This document shows positions 15,538 through 36,902 of a stretch of DNA of 64,000 nucleotides, one piece after another; the first letter of the stretch is position 1, and the number at the start of each line of letters is the position of its first letter. Where the stretch lies: positions 1 to 64,000 of the forward strand of contig JADLAC010000004.1 of assembly GCA_020848435.1 (NCBI GenBank), read 5' to 3'. The translations under genes were made by a program, and so were the position numbers. The stretch is from Burkholderiales bacterium. Lineage in GTDB: Bacteria > Pseudomonadota > Gammaproteobacteria > Burkholderiales > WYBJ01. A model generated the notes under the pieces. It had not been told where the DNA came from. It did not search any database and was given only the letters and a program-made list of their open reading frames with translations.

Positions 15538-16503
15538 TCAGTTCGCCGCCGCGCCCGAATCGCGAATGATCTTGCCGAGGCGTTCGACTTCCAGGCGAAC
15601 GAACTTCTCGAAATCTTCCGGCGAGCTCCAGCGCGGCACCACGCCCTGCACCGCCAGCCGGGCGCGGATATCCGGCGCCGAGAGGATGCGCTTCATCTCG
15701 CTGGAGAGCTTCTGCACGATCGGTTTCGGCAGCTTCGCCGGCGCGAACAGCCCGTACCAGAGGTCGAAGTCGAAGCCGGGCAGGCTCGCGGCCTCCGCGA
15801 TGGTCGGCAGATCGGGCAGGATCGGCGAGCGCTCGAGCGTGCTCACCGCGAGCGGCACCAGCCGGCCTTCCTTGAGAAAGGGCTGGGCGGAGCCGAGCGG
15901 CGCGAAGAAATAATGGATGCGCCCGGCCGCGACTTCGACCAGCGCTTCCGGCGTTCCCTTGTGCGGCACATGGACCACGTTGATGGCCGCGGCGGTCTTG
16001 AACTGTTCGCCGTTGGTATGCGTGCCTCCGCCCACGCCCGCCGAGGCGAAGTTGATCTGTCCCGGCTTCTGCTTGGCGAGGGCGATCAAGTCCTTGACCG
16101 AGCGGATGCCGAGCGAGGGCGCGACCACGAGCACGTTCGGCACGCTCGCCACCCGCGAGATGGCCGAGAAATCGCGTATCGTGTCGTACGGCAGCTTGGG
16201 ATAGATCGCGGGGCTCACGGCGTGTGCTGCCGCCTGCATCATGATGGTGTGTCCATCGGGCGGTGCGATGGCGACCAGCGCCGCACCGAGCGTGCCGCCG
16301 GCGCCGGCGCGATTGTCCATCACCACCGGTTGACCGAGCGATTCGGCGAGCTTCGGTCCGACCATGCGCGCCAGCAGGTCGGTCTGGCTGCCCGCGCTCC
16401 AGGGCACGACCATGCGTATGGGACGCGTCGGATAGGCCGGCTCTTGCGCGTACGCGCTCGCAGCCAGGGCCCAGGCGCTCAAGCCTAATAAGACACGCTG
16501 CAT
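15538..16503 (-). CDS. Bug/TctC family tripartite tricarboxylate transporter substrate-binding protein
   Basis: 321 residues. A signal peptide (MQRVLLGLSAWALAASAYAQ) is followed by the mature start YPTRPIRMVVPWSAG. The family signatures DNRAGAGGTLGAALVA and PPDGHTIMM, and the C-terminal domain, are complete. It is a periplasmic binding protein for small carboxylates or related compounds. The permease genes tctA/tctB are not adjacent, as is common for the many orphan Bug proteins of Burkholderiales. A strong GGGAGGA ribosome site precedes the ATG. The ligand cannot be read from sequence. Confidence 0.92.
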   Translation of the reverse strand: MQRVLLGLSAWALAASAYAQEPAYPTRPIRMVVPWSAGSQTDLLARMVGPKLAESLGQPVVMDNRAGAGGTLGAALVAIAPPDGHTIMMQAAAHAVSPAIYPKLPYDTIRDFSAISRVASVPNVLVVAPSLGIRSVKDLIALAKQKPGQINFASAGVGGGTHTNGEQFKTAAAINVVHVPHKGTPEALVEVAAGRIHYFFAPLGSAQPFLKEGRLVPLAVSTLERSPILPDLPTIAEAASLPGFDFDLWYGLFAPAKLPKPIVQKLSSEMKRILSAPDIRARLAVQGVVPRWSSPEDFEKFVRLEVERLGKIIRDSGAAAN

Positions 16504-28114: not shown

Positions 28115-29224
28115 ATGCAACTCACGTCGAACCGCATCGAGGTGTCGGACGCGATCGAATGCGTCGAGCACTTCTATCGCGAGAACATGACCGACGGTCT
28201 GCCGGTGGTTCCGCCGACCGAGCAGCGCGTGCGCCAGTTTCTCGAAGCCGTTGCGTTGGCACCGGACGCGAAGGTCGCGGTCGTCGCGGAGCGCGCGGCC
28301 GTGATCACGGCCGAAAAGCTCGCGATCAACGCAGTCATGGCAGGGTGCTTGCCCGAGTACATGCCCGTGCTCGTCGCGGCGGCGGAGGCGCTCGCGGATC
28401 CCGCGTTCAAGTTCAATCACCTCGCCAGTCTCGGCTCGCCCTGGCCGCTGACGATCGTGAGCGGTCCGATCGTGCGCTCGCTCGAGATGAACTGCGGCCG
28501 GTACGTGTTCGGCTCGGGTAATCGCGCGACCGCAACGATAGGGCGCGCAGTCAGCCTGCTGCTCTGGAACTGCTGCGAGGTGCGCCCCGACGCGATCCAG
28601 CGGGGCGACCTGGGCCATCTGGGCCGCCATTCTTTCTGTATTGCCGAGAACCCCGACACCAAGTGGCAGGGCTTGAACGAATGGGAAGGCTACGGGCGCG
28701 AAACCAGCACGGTCACCGTCGCCTCCGGTTACAGCCTGTGTCTCGCGCGCAGCCCGTGCAGCACGCCGACCGGCATCCTCGCCCCGCTCATCGATGGAAT
28801 CAGTCACCAGGAGTTTTCTCCTGGTTGCATCGTGGTCACAATCCCGCCGACGCTCGAAGAGCTCTTTCTTGCCCAGGGGTGGACGAAGAGGCACATACGC
28901 GATCACCTGTTCGAGCACTGCTGGCGATCGGTGAAGTCGCTGAAGGAAGCCGGCCGCTGGGGCCGGCTCGCGTCGCGCTTCGTGGGCGGGCTCAAGGATA
29001 TCGCTGCGATCGAACCGGGCGATGCCGAGCGCTGGGTCTACCTGTTCAAGCGCAACCCCGAGATCGATCCGTTTGTCTTCCACGAAGGCGCGGTGGGACG
29101 GCGCGCCGACATCCTGATCGTGGCCACCGGCGGGGATGCGGGCGCTACCATGGGATTCTGTCAGCCCTACAGCCAATCCACCTCGCCCGTAACCAAGCCG
29201 ATCAAGCCGCCGCAGCGCCATTGA
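28115..29224 (+). CDS. Uncharacterised partner of UGSC selenoprotein (TDGLPVVPPT-type protein)
   Basis: 369 residues, no signal peptide or clear membrane segment. Recognisable family marks: ENMTDGLPVVPPTEQRV near residue 25, AINAVMAGCLPEYMPV near 75, an SGPIVRSLEMNCG segment near 120, RATATIGRAVSL near 138, GHLGRHSFCIAEN near 170 and ETSTVTVASG near 195. I recall this domain as the C-terminal part of longer proteins whose N-terminal part is the UGSC domain, and as a stand-alone actinobacterial protein. Here it is separate but sits 20 bases before the UGSC gene. The start at 28115 follows a strong GGAGGAGG site. Its biochemical function is not known to me. Conserved-looking cysteines occur at NCCEV and SPGC. 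Confidence 0.75.
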   Translation: MQLTSNRIEVSDAIECVEHFYRENMTDGLPVVPPTEQRVRQFLEAVALAPDAKVAVVAERAAVITAEKLAINAVMAGCLPEYMPVLVAAAEALADPAFKFNHLASLGSPWPLTIVSGPIVRSLEMNCGRYVFGSGNRATATIGRAVSLLLWNCCEVRPDAIQRGDLGHLGRHSFCIAENPDTKWQGLNEWEGYGRETSTVTVASGYSLCLARSPCSTPTGILAPLIDGISHQEFSPGCIVVTIPPTLEELFLAQGWTKRHIRDHLFEHCWRSVKSLKEAGRWGRLASRFVGGLKDIAAIEPGDAERWVYLFKRNPEIDPFVFHEGAVGRRADILIVATGGDAGATMGFCQPYSQSTSPVTKPIKPPQRH

Positions 29225-29244
29225 CTAACACAGGAGATTACACC

Positions 29245-29796
29245 GTGAGCACGAAGTTGGTCGTCCTCGATCCCAGGCAGGCGCCGAGCGCAAGCATGGT
29301 CGTTCCGGCGCAGCGCCTGATGACGCTGCACGACAAGCGCCTCGGCCTATTGTGGAACAACCGCCTCGGTGGCGACCGCATCCTCAAGAACGTCGCGAAC
29401 CTTCTGAACGATAAACATCAGTTGAAGGAGATCTACTTCACCAAGAAGACGTTCATCGGCAACGCGGCGCCGCCGGAAGTCATCGACGATCTCGTCTCCA
29501 GAGTCGACGCGGTGGTGGTCGGCCTCGGCGACTGAGGGTCCTGCACGTCGGGCAGTGTGCTCGACACGATCAACCTCGAACGCAAGGGCGTTCCCGCCGC
29601 TGTCATCGGCCATGACAAGCTCTTTGCCACCACGGGAAAGGGCATGGCCAGGGCGCAGGGCTATCCGTCACTGAGCTTCGCGATGTTCCGCTACTCGCAC
29701 AGCGAGTGGGGGGGTGCTGCGACCGACGACGAGCTTCGCGCCAGAGCGGCGATACTGGCGCCTCAAGTCGAACGCATCCTGTTGGGCGACGCCTGA
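29245..29796 (+). CDS. UGSC-type selenoprotein, in-frame TGA (Sec97)
   Basis: 183 residues if the TGA at 29533-29535 is read as selenocysteine. The frame starts at a GTG at 29245 after a CAGGAG site. It runs to the TGA at codon 97 and stays open in the same frame to 29796. The residues around the TGA are VVVGLGD-U-GSCTSGSV, which is exactly the UGSC motif of a redox selenoprotein family first recognised in metagenomic data. A hairpin suited to a bacterial SECIS lies just after the TGA. The downstream part (KGVPAAVIGHDKLF, ARAQGYPSLSFAMF) is clearly coding-like. The likely activity is thiol/selenol redox at Sec97-Cys100, substrate unknown. The alternative is a split or nonsense-mutated gene. 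The selenocysteine machinery must lie elsewhere. Confidence 0.85.
29536..29565 (+). promoter_or_regulatory. Candidate bacterial SECIS element
   Basis: Directly after the UGA the RNA can fold as a 3-base-pair lower stem (GTC 29538-29540 with GAC 29563-29565), a 2x2 internal loop, and a 6-pair upper stem (GCACGT 29543-29548 with GTGTGC 29555-29560, two G-U pairs). The apical loop is CGGGCA, with G at its second position. The loop begins 13 bases after the UGA. Spacing and the early G in the loop fit what bacterial SelB needs, by comparison with the fdhF element. Drawn by eye. Confidence 0.6.
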
Positions 29797-29820: not shown

Positions 29821-29912
29821 GACCTCAGCCACTGCTTCGGCGCGGTGAGTCTGGAAGCCCTCGCCTACAGCCGAGGTAAGGCTTGCCCCGACAGCGCGCA
29901 GATGAGGAGAAC

Positions 29913-30896
29913 ATGTTCGGACCGATAAGACAGGCCGTCATCGTTGGCATCCTGCACCTGATCGTAACGCCGGGCGGAGCCGCGCATGGCGCGGAAAGCT
30001 ATCCCAGCAAACCGCTGCGCGTCGTAATCGGCTCGTCCCCCGGCGGCTCCATCGACCTTACGATGCGCCCGGTCGCGCACAAGCTCACCGAGCTGGTGGG
30101 CCAGCAAGTGCTGATCGACTACCGGCCCGGTGCGAACGGCAACATCGCCGCTGCTATCGTCGCGAAGGCACCGTCGGACGGCTACACGTTGCTGATGGCG
30201 AGCCTCAGCAACTTGACGATCAACCCCGCCATTTATGAGCGCATGCCGTTCGACACCCTCAAGGATTTCGCGCCGATCACGCAAATCGGCTCGAGTCCGC
30301 TCGCTCTCGTCGTGCATCCCAGCGTGCCCACCAATTCCATCCGCGAGCTGATCGGCCTCGCGAGAAGTCAGCCGAACAAGCTGAGCTTTTCGTCTGCGGG
30401 GATCGGCAGTGCGAATCATCTCGCCGCGGAGCTCTTCAAGCTGCTCACGAAGACGACCATGACTCACGTCGCGTACCGCGGCGGCGGACCCGCAACGGTG
30501 GCCGTGGTCGGCGGTGAGGTGGAGACCGTTTTCATCACCGTCCCGAGCATGCTTCCTTTCTTCAGGAACGGGCGGTTGAAGGCGCTGGCCACGCTTGCGT
30601 CGAAGCGCTCGCCTGCTTTACCGGAGATACCGACCGCGCAGGAAGCGGGGCTTGCGGGGCTGGAGGTGAGCGCGGGTACGGGTCTGCTGGCACCGGCAGG
30701 AACGACGCGCGAGGTCATCGCCCGCTTGCACGCGGAGACCGTGAAGGTTCTCGCGCTGCCGGACGTTCAGGAAAAGCTCAGCGGCGAGGGCCGCGACCTC
30801 ATCGCGGACACGCCCCAGCAGTATTCCGCGTTCCTGCGTGAGGAGATTACGAAGTGGGCGACGGTCGTGAAGAAGGCGGCCGTGAAGCTCGAGTGA
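29913..30896 (+). CDS. Bug/TctC family substrate-binding protein
   Basis: 327 residues. A signal peptide (ATG at 29913, hydrophobic core VIVGILHLIVTP, cleavage near AHGAES) leads into SYPSKPLRVVIGSSPGGSIDL. The family blocks DYRPGANGNIAAAIVAKAPSDGYTLLMAS, DTLKDFAPI and the ligand-closing C-terminal lobe are all present. The start follows a GAGGAG site; an ATG-like codon 10 residues upstream is less likely. No permease genes are adjacent. The 117-base gap from the UGSC gene contains a hairpin, so joint transcription is uncertain. Confidence 0.92.
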   Translation: MFGPIRQAVIVGILHLIVTPGGAAHGAESYPSKPLRVVIGSSPGGSIDLTMRPVAHKLTELVGQQVLIDYRPGANGNIAAAIVAKAPSDGYTLLMASLSNLTINPAIYERMPFDTLKDFAPITQIGSSPLALVVHPSVPTNSIRELIGLARSQPNKLSFSSAGIGSANHLAAELFKLLTKTTMTHVAYRGGGPATVAVVGGEVETVFITVPSMLPFFRNGRLKALATLASKRSPALPEIPTAQEAGLAGLEVSAGTGLLAPAGTTREVIARLHAETVKVLALPDVQEKLSGEGRDLIADTPQQYSAFLREEITKWATVVKKAAVKLE

Positions 30897-30906
30897 TGCC
30901 TTCCGA

Positions 30907-32103
30907 CTAGCCTGTCGCCTTCGCCATGCGGCGCACGACCTTCATGCGCTGCACCGCGTCGCCCGCGAGGTGGGTCCAGATGATGCCGTCGCGCACGAGC
31001 TTGTTCGCCAGCGCGTCCATGGTGAAGCCGGCGGCGCCGTGCAGATCCATGTTGATCTGCGTCACTTCCTGGATCACGTCGGTGGAGAAGTTCATGACGA
31101 AGCCGGCATTGGTGGAGGGAAGCTTCTGGTCGTGCTCCCAGGCCACCCGCAGCACGTAGCTGCGCAGCGCTTCGGTCAGCATGTTCATGCGCCCCAGCTT
31201 GAGCTGCACCGCCTGCTGCTCGAGCAGCGGCTTGCCGCCCTGGGTGCGCGAGCGGGTGAGCTTCAAGGCCGACTCGCAGGCGCACATGCACACGCCGAGC
31301 GCGTTGGCGGCGAGCTCCAGGTCGCCGAACAGGTCGCCGCCGGTGCGCTCGCTCTTGTCGAGGCGCGACTGGCCGCCGGTTTGTTCCACCACGTTGGCAT
31401 GCGGGACCCGCGCGTTGTCGAAAATCATCTCCGCGTTCTGATAGAAGCGCCAGCCGCTCTTGTTGAACACCTTGCCGGAGCGGAATCCCGGCGTATCGCG
31501 CGGGATGAGGAACATGGTGACGCCTTCTTTCAAGCTCGCGTTGGGATTCGAGCGCGCGTCCAGAAAGAACAGCTTGCCGATGTTGCCGTTGGCGATGAAG
31601 CACTTTTCGCCGTTCAGTATCCATTCGTCGCCGCGCCGTTCGGCCTTGAGCCGGACCCCGGCACGGACCTCGTCCTCGGGCGGCAGCCGGTTGTCGGAGC
31701 CCGCATTGGGCTCGGTGATGCCTTTACCCATGACGAAGGTATCGTCGGCGAGGAAGGCGCTCAGGAAGCGCTGCTTCTGCTCGGGCGAGCAGGCGCTGGC
31801 GATCAGGTGGCTCCATTTCCAGTTCTGACTGAAGGCCTTCGAGATCGCGCTGTCGCCGCGGGCAAGCTCGGCCATGACCAGCGCCTGGGTCACGAAATCG
31901 GCGCCCGGGCCACCGTATGCCTTGGGCACGGCGAGCGTGCGGAAACCGAGCTGGGAGCCTTTCTTGAACAGATCCCAATCCCAGGTCTCGCGCGGATCGA
32001 GAATGCGATCGCGCGCGAGCGAGACCGGGCGGATGTCTTCTTCGGCGAACTTGCGCGCCTTCTGCTGCCACTCGCGTTGCTCGTCGTTGAGCGAAAAATC
32101 CAT
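30907..32103 (-). CDS. Acyl-CoA dehydrogenase family protein
   Basis: 398 residues with the three acyl-CoA dehydrogenase domains. The N-terminal helical domain starts MDFSLNDEQREWQQKARKFA. The middle FAD-binding part holds GKGITEPNAGSDN and GEKCFIANG. The C-terminal domain has LKLTRSRTQGGKPLLEQQAVQ and DLHGAAGFTMDALANKLVRD. It oxidises an acyl-CoA at the alpha-beta bond, passing electrons to an electron-transfer flavoprotein. It is 25 bases downstream of the second dehydrogenase gene on the same strand and has a GAAGGAGA site, so the two probably form an operon and perhaps a heteromeric enzyme (inference). Confidence 0.92.
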   Translation of the reverse strand: MDFSLNDEQREWQQKARKFAEEDIRPVSLARDRILDPRETWDWDLFKKGSQLGFRTLAVPKAYGGPGADFVTQALVMAELARGDSAISKAFSQNWKWSHLIASACSPEQKQRFLSAFLADDTFVMGKGITEPNAGSDNRLPPEDEVRAGVRLKAERRGDEWILNGEKCFIANGNIGKLFFLDARSNPNASLKEGVTMFLIPRDTPGFRSGKVFNKSGWRFYQNAEMIFDNARVPHANVVEQTGGQSRLDKSERTGGDLFGDLELAANALGVCMCACESALKLTRSRTQGGKPLLEQQAVQLKLGRMNMLTEALRSYVLRVAWEHDQKLPSTNAGFVMNFSTDVIQEVTQINMDLHGAAGFTMDALANKLVRDGIIWTHLAGDAVQRMKVVRRMAKATG

Positions 32104-32128
32104 GTATGCGTCTCCTTCAATCCGACGC

Positions 32129-33361
32129 CTAGTCGCGGCGGAATTCGGCGATGGCCTCGGCGATGCGCAGCTTGCCGTCCCCCGGGCTCATCCCCGAGTG
32201 CAGGAAGATCAAGGCATCCTGTACGTACTTGTGCATCGGCATGTCGCGCATGACGCCCATCGCGCCGAACACTTCGGCGGCATCGAGCGCGGCCTGGTGC
32301 ATCGCCTCGGCGGTGTAGACGCGGGCGATGGTTTGCAGCGGCAGGTCCGTGACGCTGCGCTCGGCCACCGCCGCGGGATGGTCGGCGGCCCAGGCCGCCT
32401 TCCACACCATGGTGCGCGCCAGCTCGATGCGAATCGCGATCTCGGCCAGCAGCGTGCCGATCGCCTGGTGCTCGATGATGCGCCGTGCGCCTTGAACCCG
32501 TATGCGCGCATAGTCGACCGCGGCTTCGTAGGCAGCACGCCCGATGCCGATGTTCATGGCCTGCACCAGCGGCAGGCCGCGCCCGAGGGCCTCCAGCCCC
32601 GCCGCGAGCGGGCTGCTGCCCTCGTCGCCCAGCAACTGGTCCGCGGGTACGCGCGTGTCCTTGAACGTCACGTCGCCGCGCAGGCCGTGATACCAGCCGG
32701 CGTTCTGATCCAGCTCGCGTACCGTCATGCCGGCGGTGTCGCGCGCGACCAGCAGCGTGCTGATGCCCTGGCCGGCGGGGGCTTTCGGGTCGGTACGCAC
32801 TTGCACGGCGAACAGCGTGGCGAGCGGGGCGTTCGGCACGAAGCTCTTGGTGCCGTTGATGATCCAGTCGCCGGTGGGCGTGCGCGTGGCGGCGCAGTTG
32901 GTCGCCGGCGCAACGGGCACGGCCCGGTGATAGTTGACGCCCAGCTCGGTGTCGCTGTCGGGCTCGTGCGCGGCCAGCGCGAGCTGGGCCGCATCGTCCT
33001 TGATGAACGCCGGCAGGAAGCGCTCGCGTTGCGCCGGGCTCATGAGCTGATCGAACAGGACATGGCTCAACGCCGAGGTCTCGACCAGCACGGCGGCCAC
33101 GTCGGGATCGCCGGCCGCAAGCTCTTCGGCCACGATGCAGGCCGTAATGCCGTCGGCGCCCGCGCCCCCCAGGGGCTCGGAGAGCGCCAGCGTGCGCAGC
33201 CCCATCTGCGCGGCCTTGAGCAGGATGTCCGCGGGCGGGCGCCGATCGAGCGATTCCATGCGCGCCGGCTTGATCGCCACGGGCTTGATCTCGTTCGTGA
33301 CGAACTCGCGCACGGTATCGCGAATCTCGTGTTGTTCGGCGCTGAGATGCAGATCGTACAT
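32129..33361 (-). CDS. Acyl-CoA dehydrogenase family protein
   Basis: 410 residues. It begins MYDLHLSAEQHEIRDTVREF and has the usual layout: central FAD-domain segment LAAHEPDSDTELG then GTKSFVPNAPLA, and C-terminal RRIIEHQAIGTLLAEIAIR and VFGAMGVMRDMPMHKYVQD. The usual TEPxAGSD motif is altered to HEPDSDTE, so its activity or substrate may differ from ordinary dehydrogenases. It is the first of two dehydrogenase genes in a probable operon. The start at 33361 gives the family N-terminus; an ATG 6 codons upstream is possible. Confidence 0.9.
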   Translation of the reverse strand: MYDLHLSAEQHEIRDTVREFVTNEIKPVAIKPARMESLDRRPPADILLKAAQMGLRTLALSEPLGGAGADGITACIVAEELAAGDPDVAAVLVETSALSHVLFDQLMSPAQRERFLPAFIKDDAAQLALAAHEPDSDTELGVNYHRAVPVAPATNCAATRTPTGDWIINGTKSFVPNAPLATLFAVQVRTDPKAPAGQGISTLLVARDTAGMTVRELDQNAGWYHGLRGDVTFKDTRVPADQLLGDEGSSPLAAGLEALGRGLPLVQAMNIGIGRAAYEAAVDYARIRVQGARRIIEHQAIGTLLAEIAIRIELARTMVWKAAWAADHPAAVAERSVTDLPLQTIARVYTAEAMHQAALDAAEVFGAMGVMRDMPMHKYVQDALIFLHSGMSPGDGKLRIAEAIAEFRRD

Positions 33362-33699: not shown

Positions 33700-34683
33700 A
33701 TGAGCGTGGAATCGAGCGTCGCCAAGCTGGCGCAGGCATGGGTCGCGTTCGCCCTGGCGGGCGCCGCGGCCGGAGCGCTGGCGCAGGCGTATCCCGCCAA
33801 GGTCATACGCGTGATCAACCCCGCCGCGCCCGGCGGCAACAGCGACATCCTGTTTCGCCTGTTGCAACCGAAGATGAGCGAAGCGCTGGGCCAGCCGCTC
33901 GTCATGGATTACCGCTCGGGCGCGGGCGGCATCATCGGGGTCGAGCTGACCTCGCGGGCGCCGGCCGACGGTTACACGACCGCGTTGGTCGCCGCAAGCT
34001 TCCTCATCAATCCTGCGGTGCGCGCCAAGCTGCCTTACGACACGCTGAAAGATTTCACACCGCTCGGCCTGATCGTCGACTTGCCGGCCGGTTTCATGGT
34101 GCACCCGTCGATGCCGGTGAAGACGGTGAAGGAGATGATCACGCTGGCCAAGACGCGCCCCGGACAGATCCTGTATTCCACCTCCGGCGCGGGCGCGATC
34201 GGCCACATGGCGGCGGAGCTGTTCAACGCCATGGCGGGCGTGAAGCTCGTGCACGTGCCGTACAAGGGCGCGGGTCCGAGCGTCATCGACTTGATCGCGG
34301 GCCACGTACAGACCACCTTCGTGAGCCTTCCCCTGGTGGTCGGGCATGTCCAGACCGGGCGGCTGCGCATCCTCGCCCAGTGCGGCGAAAGACGCTTCGA
34401 AACCTTGCCCGACGTGCCGACCATGCAGGAAGCGGGCGTTCCCGGCTTCGTCGTGAGCAGCGGCTTCAGCTTCATCGGGCCGGCCGGCATGGCGCGCCCG
34501 GTGGCGGAGAAGCTCAACAGCGCGCTGGCGCAAGCGGTGCGCGATCCCGCCAACCGCAAGCAGCTCATCGCCCAAGCCGCCGATCCGATCGGCAACTCGA
34601 TCGACGAGCATGCCGCCTTCATGAAGGCGGAAGTCGCGAAATGGACGCGGGTGGCGAAGCAGGCCAACATCCGCGTCGATTGA
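33700..34683 (+). CDS. Bug/TctC family substrate-binding protein
   Basis: 327 residues, with signal peptide AWVAFALAGAAAGALAQAYP and mature start YPAKVIRVINPAAPGGNSDI. The conserved blocks MDYRSGAGGIIGVELTSRA, PADGYTTALVAA, YDTLKDFTP and the C-terminal lobe are complete. It is 60 bases upstream of the end of a convergent enolase-family gene. The open frame reaches back to 33463, but the ATG at 33700 follows a GAGGAGGG site and gives a normal signal peptide. Ligand unknown. Confidence 0.92.
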   Translation: MSVESSVAKLAQAWVAFALAGAAAGALAQAYPAKVIRVINPAAPGGNSDILFRLLQPKMSEALGQPLVMDYRSGAGGIIGVELTSRAPADGYTTALVAASFLINPAVRAKLPYDTLKDFTPLGLIVDLPAGFMVHPSMPVKTVKEMITLAKTRPGQILYSTSGAGAIGHMAAELFNAMAGVKLVHVPYKGAGPSVIDLIAGHVQTTFVSLPLVVGHVQTGRLRILAQCGERRFETLPDVPTMQEAGVPGFVVSSGFSFIGPAGMARPVAEKLNSALAQAVRDPANRKQLIAQAADPIGNSIDEHAAFMKAEVAKWTRVAKQANIRVD

Positions 34684-35924: not shown

Positions 35925-36902
35925 ATGATCGCATCGAGATTTCACGCCCTGCTCTGGGCCGCCTGCATTGCGATGGCCGGCGGCGCGTACGCGCAGGATG
36001 CCGGCAAGCCCCTGCGCATCATCCAGGGCTTCGCGCCGGGCGGCGGCCACGACACGGTCGCGCGCCTGCTCGCGCCGCGCACCGGCTCGCAGCTCGGGGT
36101 CAATGCGATCGTCGAAGCACGTCCGGGCGCCAACGGGATGATCGGCGCGGAAGTCGTCGCCAAATCCGCGCCCGACGGCAACACGATATTCCTCTCCGGC
36201 GTGAGCACCTTCGTGCTCAATCCCCTGGTGTACTCGAAAGTCGCGTACGACACGCTCAAGGACTTCGCTCCGATCACGCTGGTCGCAGCGCTGCCGCAGA
36301 TCATCGTCGCGCATCCGCGCTTGCCGGCGAAGTCGCTGAACGAAGTCGCACAGCTCGCGCGGCGCAACCCCAACCAGCTCTCGGCGGGCTCGCCGGGTGT
36401 AGGTGGGCTATCGCATCTCACGCTCGAGCTGTTCAAGCGCATCGCCAAGCTCGACATCGAGCACGTCCCCTACAAGGGCACGGGCGCCGCGCTGGTCGAC
36501 GTGCTGGGCGGTTACGTCCCCGTGATCATTGGCGATCTGCCCGGGCCGCTGCCGCATGTGAAGGCCGGCAAGCTGCGCGCGCTCGCGGTCACGAGCGGGC
36601 AACGCTCCTCGCTGCTGCCGGACGTGCCGACGGCGAGCGAACAAGGTTATCGCGAGCTGGAATCGACCAACTGGTACGGCGTCATGGCGCCTTCCGGCGT
36701 ACCGCCCCAAACCGTGACGCGCATCCACGCCGCGCTCGTCGCGGCCGCGCAGGCGCCCGAGACGCGGGAACGCTACGCGGCGCTGGGCATGGACCCGGCC
36801 GTGTCGGCTTCGCCAGGCGCGTTCACGACCTTCGTACGCGATGAATTCACGCGCTGGAACAAGGTCGTGCGCAGTACGGGCATCAAGCTCGAGCAGCAGT
36901 AG
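35925..36902 (+). CDS. Bug/TctC family substrate-binding protein
   Basis: 325 residues. Signal peptide FHALLWAACIAMAGGAYAQ is followed by the mature start KPLRIIQGFAPGGGHDTVARL. The blocks EARPGANGMIGAEVV, APDGNTIFLSG, DTLKDFAPI and the C-terminal lobe are complete. The ATG at 35925 is preferred over 35895 because GAGAGGAA precedes it and the signal peptide then has a normal n-region. An MmgE/PrpD gene follows after 8 bases on the same strand, so transporter binding protein and dehydratase-type enzyme are probably co-transcribed. Ligand unknown. Confidence 0.92.
   Translation: MIASRFHALLWAACIAMAGGAYAQDAGKPLRIIQGFAPGGGHDTVARLLAPRTGSQLGVNAIVEARPGANGMIGAEVVAKSAPDGNTIFLSGVSTFVLNPLVYSKVAYDTLKDFAPITLVAALPQIIVAHPRLPAKSLNEVAQLARRNPNQLSAGSPGVGGLSHLTLELFKRIAKLDIEHVPYKGTGAALVDVLGGYVPVIIGDLPGPLPHVKAGKLRALAVTSGQRSSLLPDVPTASEQGYRELESTNWYGVMAPSGVPPQTVTRIHAALVAAAQAPETRERYAALGMDPAVSASPGAFTTFVRDEFTRWNKVVRSTGIKLEQQ

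Follow-up and report, generated by a model that had tools for sequence, protein, structure and literature searches.

The 64,000-nucleotide stretch of the Burkholderiales bacterium contig JADLAC010000004.1 analyzed here (the window) carries a gene of the UGSC selenoprotein family, in which a TGA codon is predicted to encode selenocysteine (Sec), and, directly upstream of it, a gene for a second protein, hereafter the partner. Because UGSC genes have this partner regularly, are present on a large scale, and occur with a TrxB-like reductase gene beside selB, we read the UGSC protein as one half, the one with selenium, of a two-part Sec-dependent reductase whose substrates would be small organic acids, and we give this explanation as a whole a probability of about 0.5. 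The pairing is strongly supported, and UGSC and the partner very probably form a two-part enzyme, whereas we infer its chemistry and substrates. The UGSC family has been known since the 2000s; the regular pairing, its scale, and the reductase gene in the sel operon appear to be new. Naming the pair makes UGSC, a family without known function, a testable two-component enzyme. The genes and elements concerned are the following.

28115..29224, + strand: partner gene, 369 amino acids, start codon inferred, directly upstream of the UGSC gene
29232..29236, + strand: AGGAG, resembling a ribosome-binding site, 8 nt 5′ of the GTG start
29245..29796, + strand: UGSC selenoprotein gene, GTG start at 29245-29247, 183 residues including Sec97, TGA stop at 29794-29796
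29533..29535, + strand: in-frame TGA, predicted selenocysteine codon at residue 97, from the frame reading and the paralogue alignment
29542..29544, + strand: codon of Cys100 (U-G-S-C), invariant in 24/24 paralogues
29547..29565, + strand: predicted bacterial selenocysteine insertion sequence (SECIS) stem-loop, 8 bp including one G-U, loop GTG, beginning 11 nt 3′ of the TGA

An earlier note on this DNA had described a frame that meets a TGA at codon 97 and continues to a stop at 29796, and had assigned it to the UGSC family. The frame reading is exact: 86 codons in the same frame separate the TGA at codon 97 from the TGA stop, the residues around the former are VDAVVVGLGD-U-GSCTSGS, and 20 nt lie between the end of the partner gene and the UGSC start. 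The family identity holds as well, with the U-G-S-C motif and a match of the read-through protein to PF24696 of 141.4 bits (cut-off 25) over residues 7–180, spanning the TGA; the window protein shares with this family the motif, the Sec column, and the rare cysteine forms. Since the protein scored 98 bits against the NCBIfam equivalog NF041046, an NCBI model narrower than PF24696 with a curated cut-off of 125, we filed it under PF24696. A PDB sequence search with UGSC returned only FtsZ and others at E ≥ 0.15, and a promoter and terminator scan found no promoter-like site and one terminator-like site, fewer than expected by chance.

The TGA could instead be a true stop or a sequencing error in a decaying or truncated gene, and two database homologues, P0002 and P0003, do end exactly at it (...VGLGD). 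However, these are gene-caller truncations, as the earlier note had anticipated. A PF24696 search of the whole host genome (5.73 Mb in 89 contigs; completeness 93.6%, contamination 2.1%) yielded 26 matches, 24 of them full length. Every full-length gene contains exactly one internal stop, a TGA, at residue 94–108 in the context [DVASCNG]-U-G-[SGAT]-C. It falls in a single alignment column in 24/24 (invariant residues P10, U97, G98, C100, G115, and F127, plus Met1), and in 20 of the 24 the normal stop is a TGA too. Cys100 is likely the resolving thiol. We also collected loci from other genomes, namely the best 80 of at least 576 partner relatives, all selected through the partner. Among the 86 UGSC matches in these loci, 83 have TGA at the Sec site and the remaining three have cysteine. 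Cysteine variants, for which the earlier note had suggested looking, thus occur as CGSC in the haloarchaeon Natrialba asiatica (L099), adjoining a partner, and as CAGC in two actinobacteria (L053 and L115).

The earlier note would have been refuted by homologue alignments that stop at the TGA, but these go on past it with a conserved downstream frame. Against the closest relative (L040), the proportion of nonsynonymous differences (pN) was 0.28 upstream and 0.24 downstream of the TGA, with a synonymous proportion (pS) of ca. 0.9, near saturation; against L041, the nonsynonymous and synonymous rates (dN and dS) were 0.69 and 1.11 before and 0.54 and 1.34 after it. By these comparisons, the frame downstream of the TGA is under purifying selection. 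The earlier note had named the selenocysteine machinery beforehand as a test of its reading, and selA, selB, tRNA-Sec, and selD are all in the genome. The tRNA-Sec scored 75 bits (cut-off 47) and has the anticodon TCA, selA and selB exceeded their cut-offs and form one operon together with it, and selD, also over its cut-off, has its own in-frame TGA (L127, G000:C22:27091-28020). A second tRNA-Sec-like match (L002, G000:C2:138838-138925) scored 47.5 bits, barely above the cut-off of 47, and may be a chance match or a real gene.

In a survey of 300 genomes of the order, in which at most 11 candidates were scored per genome, 36 genomes had UGSC matches and 33 of them exceeded the PF24696 cut-off; G053, G176, and G234 fell below it and were treated as negative. 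selB was present in 30 of the 33 UGSC genomes and in 52 of the 267 others (Fisher P 4e-16). The three UGSC genomes without selB (G052, G059, and G143) are fragmented, and two of them are 84% complete. The window locus is almost certainly a selenoprotein gene, while a true stop or sequencing error is extremely improbable. Recoding is strongly supported, as well as sequence allows, and selenium insertion is predicted.

We examined the region 3′ of the TGA for conserved pairing in an alignment of 105 sequences (104 distinct), comprising the 24 paralogues and 81 of the 86 relatives; the three cysteine forms and two matches too near a contig end were omitted. Stem positions were paired in 84.1% of cells compared with 71.6% in shuffled alignments, and covariation was 0.300 compared with 0.119. 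Because the stem region is coding, we applied a control of 200 synonymous recodings, using the codon usage of the fetched host loci for the 24 paralogues and that of each sequence's own partner gene for the other 81. The number of paired positions was 706, against a null mean of 471 and a maximum of 505. Pairing exceeded the sequence's own null mean in 102/105 cases, and the window forms 8/8 pairs (P 0.013). These results indicate that the predicted stem-loop 3′ of the TGA is kept beyond the coding requirement. Several observations count against this: the 24 paralogues form 6.25 of 8 pairs on average, only 12 of them reach P < 0.1 singly, the window stem is unremarkable as a single-sequence fold (z -0.63), RNAalifold returned zero consensus pairs for the 105 sequences, and part of the stem is retained in the archaeal cysteine form.

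The other copies in the host are 22–36% identical to the window UGSC protein and are therefore diverged paralogues. When seven genomes of the order were recounted at E ≤ 1e-3, matches not all being full length, the counts were 24, 19, and 17 for the three of the same genus; the other four, from a different family, had 58, 18, 19, and 14. In the genome with 58 matches (G292), 50/50 among the matches listed contain a TGA. Two of these 50 (G292:C307:2580-3122 and G292:C45:3329-3712) carry an additional TAG or TAA and are possibly decaying genes. The host genome has six matches to PF00115 (haem-copper oxidase) and can therefore probably respire oxygen; nitric oxide reductases also fall in this family. 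A genome with six matches of this kind holds 24 full-length genes of one selenoprotein family. Passages of a 2026 review state that aerobic bacteria seldom retain selenoproteins and that the richest organisms are mostly anaerobic (PMC13188914). The largest whole selenoproteomes named in the literature passages are those of isolates (39 and 46 genes), the Olavius symbiont (57), and a Methylomirabilota metagenome-assembled genome (63), and a survey of more than 5200 organisms is quoted with 33 UGSC selenoproteins in 26 organisms (PMC5029168).

The partner family has members of ca. 350 residues, and an alignment of 25 host copies showed the invariant residues D27, P30, A76-G77-C78, R144, E178, and W184. 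Pfam and NCBIfam scans of the window partner gave zero matches, a PDB sequence search found no relative, and none of the 120 partner homologues listed has a functional name. In the host, 14 of the 24 UGSC genes have a separate partner within ca. 100 bp, up- or downstream, and nine are fused to one. The sole gene for which no partner was found (L018) is at a contig end, and tblastn with the window partner matched every host UGSC locus except this one. Literature passages on the known family name no regular partner, in contrast to the 24 copies with a partner at 23 observed here. Passages of one paper do report UGSC fused to an 'Unknown_1' domain (PMC2398784), which may equal the partner. The host genome contains 27 full partner domains, which leaves a few without their own UGSC gene among those found. 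Unpaired extra partners lie at L026:10742-11794, L029:5358-6404, G000:C12:12215-13228, and G000:C26:218-1237 (the last at a contig end), and these are perhaps for mixed complexes. A tree from the loci nearest the window's partner gave 14 changes for 25 copies and is indicative only.

The pairing extends to the other genomes. UGSC was found in 79 of the 80 partner loci, the exception (L051) being a 4.2-kb contig, and the loci span Beta-, Gamma-, and Alphaproteobacteria, Chloroflexota, Rokubacteria, actinobacteria, a Bacillus, and the archaeon Natrialba. The nearest partner is encoded on the same strand for 84 of the 86 UGSC matches and is no more than 300 bp away for 75. The CGSC form of Natrialba asiatica beside a partner indicates that the pair also exists without Sec. 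In a database search with the partner, 7986 of 8000 scored candidates were homologous, so the family has at least 7986 clusters.

Cys78 is invariant in 145 aligned partners, and Cys175 is widely conserved. With SaoB, SaoC, and UXX-star, which passages of the 2026 review present as proposed cases of Sec as a metal ligand (PMC13188914), this conservation would fit a pair in which Sec and conserved cysteines bind a metal or metalloid for metal handling or detoxification. However, no metal-resistance family was matched in 24 scanned proteins (a chosen subset of 15 from the window, the UGSC protein and the partner among them, and nine from other loci), and neither cysteine is kept throughout: three fused proteins (L067:2367-3956, L110:6377-7945, and L049:3066-4790) have Ala or Gly in place of Cys78, a loss that also tells against the two-part reductase, and Cys175 is replaced in several fused paralogues. 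A metal-binding role is quite improbable. L067, L110, and L049 each carry a second partner copy. The partner as an Fe-S protein was rejected, with just two widely conserved cysteines, each lost in some fused paralogues.

An AlphaFold2 model of a fused homologue (mean predicted local distance difference test score 93.1, predicted template modelling score 0.93) gave a doubly wound beta-alpha UGSC domain, for which flavodoxin-, receiver-, and LarB/PurE-like structures were listed as neighbours. The domain is predicted to be alpha/beta and flavodoxin-like rather than thioredoxin-like, with Sec at a helix start and packed on the partner domain; in this modelled fold it differs from the account of the known UGSC family. 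No thioredoxin-fold row was among those listed by Foldseek and VIA, an absence that extends only to the listed rows. The fold bears on the proposal of a thioredoxin-like UGSC protein that serves generally in thiol-disulphide exchange or peroxide detoxification, with the partner as an accessory. U-x-x-C does resemble the CxxC of thioredoxin, and a TrxB-like reductase is encoded in the sel operon; however, the predicted fold and its listed neighbours fit less well, and a housekeeping antioxidant would have no obvious need for at least 24 diverged copies, 23 of them partnered, amid catabolic genes. We consider this proposal unlikely. For the partner, the best Foldseek matches were weak, to fumarate hydratase (E 4e-3, prob 0.38) and cyclic amide hydrolases (E ≥ 0.03). 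Together with the existence of cysteine homologues, they could be taken to favor non-reductive catalysis (hydration, hydrolysis, or racemization), in which Sec would be merely a nucleophile or acid-base group; this too seems rather unlikely. A partner fold drawn from the fumarase, cyclic-amide-hydrolase, or chorismate-mutase matches was too weak to be relied on.

The two-part reductase would require an electron donor, for which the sel operon offers a candidate. In the host, selA, selB, a TrxB-like gene, and tRNA-Sec follow one another on a single strand (L017:8486-13082). The 13 selB loci of 12 UGSC relatives include 10 with the TrxB-like gene after selB, and in eight of these ARAGORN places tRNA-Sec behind it. 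Across the 30 UGSC genomes of the order with selB, host included, 15 of 32 loci (a set that omits one second locus, G180:C223) have a TrxB-like gene no more than 500 bp from selB, compared with 0/20 UGSC-negative loci. It was also absent beside selB from 30 UGSC-negative loci with shorter flanks. These 30 controls, G234 included, are the top-scoring loci of the order search and not a random sample; the set of 20 was drawn from them and retrieved anew with 6-kb flanks. Genomes with at least nine UGSC matches number 11, and the TrxB-like gene is present in 12/12 of their uncut loci; genomes with smaller counts have it at three loci, at two of these on the other side of selB. Additionally, a UGSC gene lies within ca. 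6 kb of selB in 8/32 loci of UGSC genomes and in 0/20 negative ones. UGSC is near sel genes also in L062, L065, and L078; in the first of these, Sheuella amnicola NBD-18, partner, UGSC, TrxB-like gene, and selB lie within ca. 6 kb. On the other side of the balance, the TrxB-like gene is missing at 17/32 selB loci (L192, L193, and L210 of these are cut just after selB by contig ends and are counted as negative), and the genomes bearing it cluster in few families. Those with high copy numbers belong to two, so that common descent may account for some of the association. The TrxB-like enzyme is, with somewhat better than even odds, the electron donor to UGSC.

Glycine and proline reductases offer a model for the chemistry. 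One PF07355 match was found in the host genome (L133:1396-2604; G000:C78, around 121690), and its profile match ends just before an in-frame TGA. Read through, this PrdB-like gene gives VDAVLLSPV-U-PNCTC...ERAGVPSAQI (VDAVLLSPV-U-PNCTCAVGALGHYIERAGVPSAQI), with Sec placed as in the window's VDAVVVGLGD-U-GSCTS...ERKGVPAAVI. UGSC resembles GrdB/PrdB in having a U-x-x-C-T motif and, after it, ...ER-GVP..., a stretch shared with the PrdB-like protein; that protein is longer than UGSC and belongs to a separate family (PF07355). Profile comparison with 51 sequences gave Prob 78 and P 1.8e-5, aligning Sec on Sec and C100 on C. On trimmed alignments, the score of 32.2 exceeded those of 150 column shuffles (maximum 22.9) and 150 motif-kept shuffles (maximum 27.0). 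The related PF09338 was matched by one of the 24 UGSC proteins (E 0.0066).

The likeness is opposed by a weak result with the smaller profile of 24 sequences (Prob 18), by Prob 27 on the trimmed alignments, and by the failure of all 24 UGSC proteins to match PF07355 in Pfam at E ≤ 1. Moreover, the partner has no likeness to the PrdB-like profile, and a GrdE/PrdA-type pyruvoyl subunit was not identified, 0/25 partners matching a Pfam glycine-reductase model at E ≤ 1. The partner was not taken for a GrdE/PrdA-like subunit, given its two cysteines that are each lost in some fused paralogues, no convincing Pfam match, and no PrdB-like profile likeness, although a pyruvoyl group might form at Cys78. 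A PDB sequence search with the PrdB-like profile found no relative. The comparisons suggest a possible distant kinship of UGSC with GrdB/PrdB, not membership. The electrons of GrdB and PrdB come from the thioredoxin system. Both work with other subunits, according to passages of the 2026 review (PMC13188914). A difference from GrdB/PrdB is that the present host has genes for proteins of the haem-copper oxidase family and is not necessarily strictly anaerobic. By analogy, a chemistry like that of GrdB/PrdB is possible, at somewhat less than even odds.

In the two-part reductase as we picture it, the TGA at 29533-29535 would be read as selenocysteine and the completed protein would be the selenium-bearing half, while the upstream partner would bind the substrate, probably a small organic acid. 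Sec97 would attack or reduce this substrate, the target probably being a carbon-heteroatom bond, as for glycine and proline reductase, and would then form a selenenylsulfide with Cys100. The TrxB-like enzyme, directly or via thioredoxin, would reset the selenenylsulfide with NAD(P)H, and the diverged paralogues may serve different substrates. A more far-reaching version, which we put forward only tentatively and regard as doubtful, is that UGSC and partner constitute an unrecognized superfamily of two-part selenoreductases. This would be an oxygen-compatible counterpart of glycine and proline reductase, with dozens of paralogues per genome (24 in the host, up to 58 matches in a relative), each reductively cleaving a different small organic acid and recharged by the dedicated TrxB-like enzyme of the sel operon.

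Around the window pair are RraA-like, Asp/Glu racemase-like, Gfo/Idh/MocA, TctC, mandelate-racemase-like, and MmgE/PrpD genes and two acyl-CoA dehydrogenase genes, the last in tandem at 30907-33361 beside the UGSC pair. These catabolic neighbours suggest organic-acid catabolism. Directly downstream lies a possible link to substrate uptake:

29913..30896, + strand: TctC-family (Bug) solute-binding protein, start inferred, PF03401 231 bits on the longer frame 29883-30893

The host genome has at least 150 TctC genes (150 of 447 candidates scored), so that neither a specific linkage of TctC to UGSC nor an enrichment is claimed. Genes of one cluster lie in the window at 15538-16503, 29913-30896 (scanned as TctC), 33700-34683, and 35925-36902, and 17 of 22 loci together contain the 44 members of one TctC cluster. 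Across the 80 partner loci, no gene cluster besides UGSC and the partner recurs in more than 18 loci. The commonest neighbours there are short-chain dehydrogenases (18), TctC (14, by sequence), and ABC ATPases (12), followed by an unnamed cluster (11), CoA-transferase III (10), and luciferase-like monooxygenases (9).
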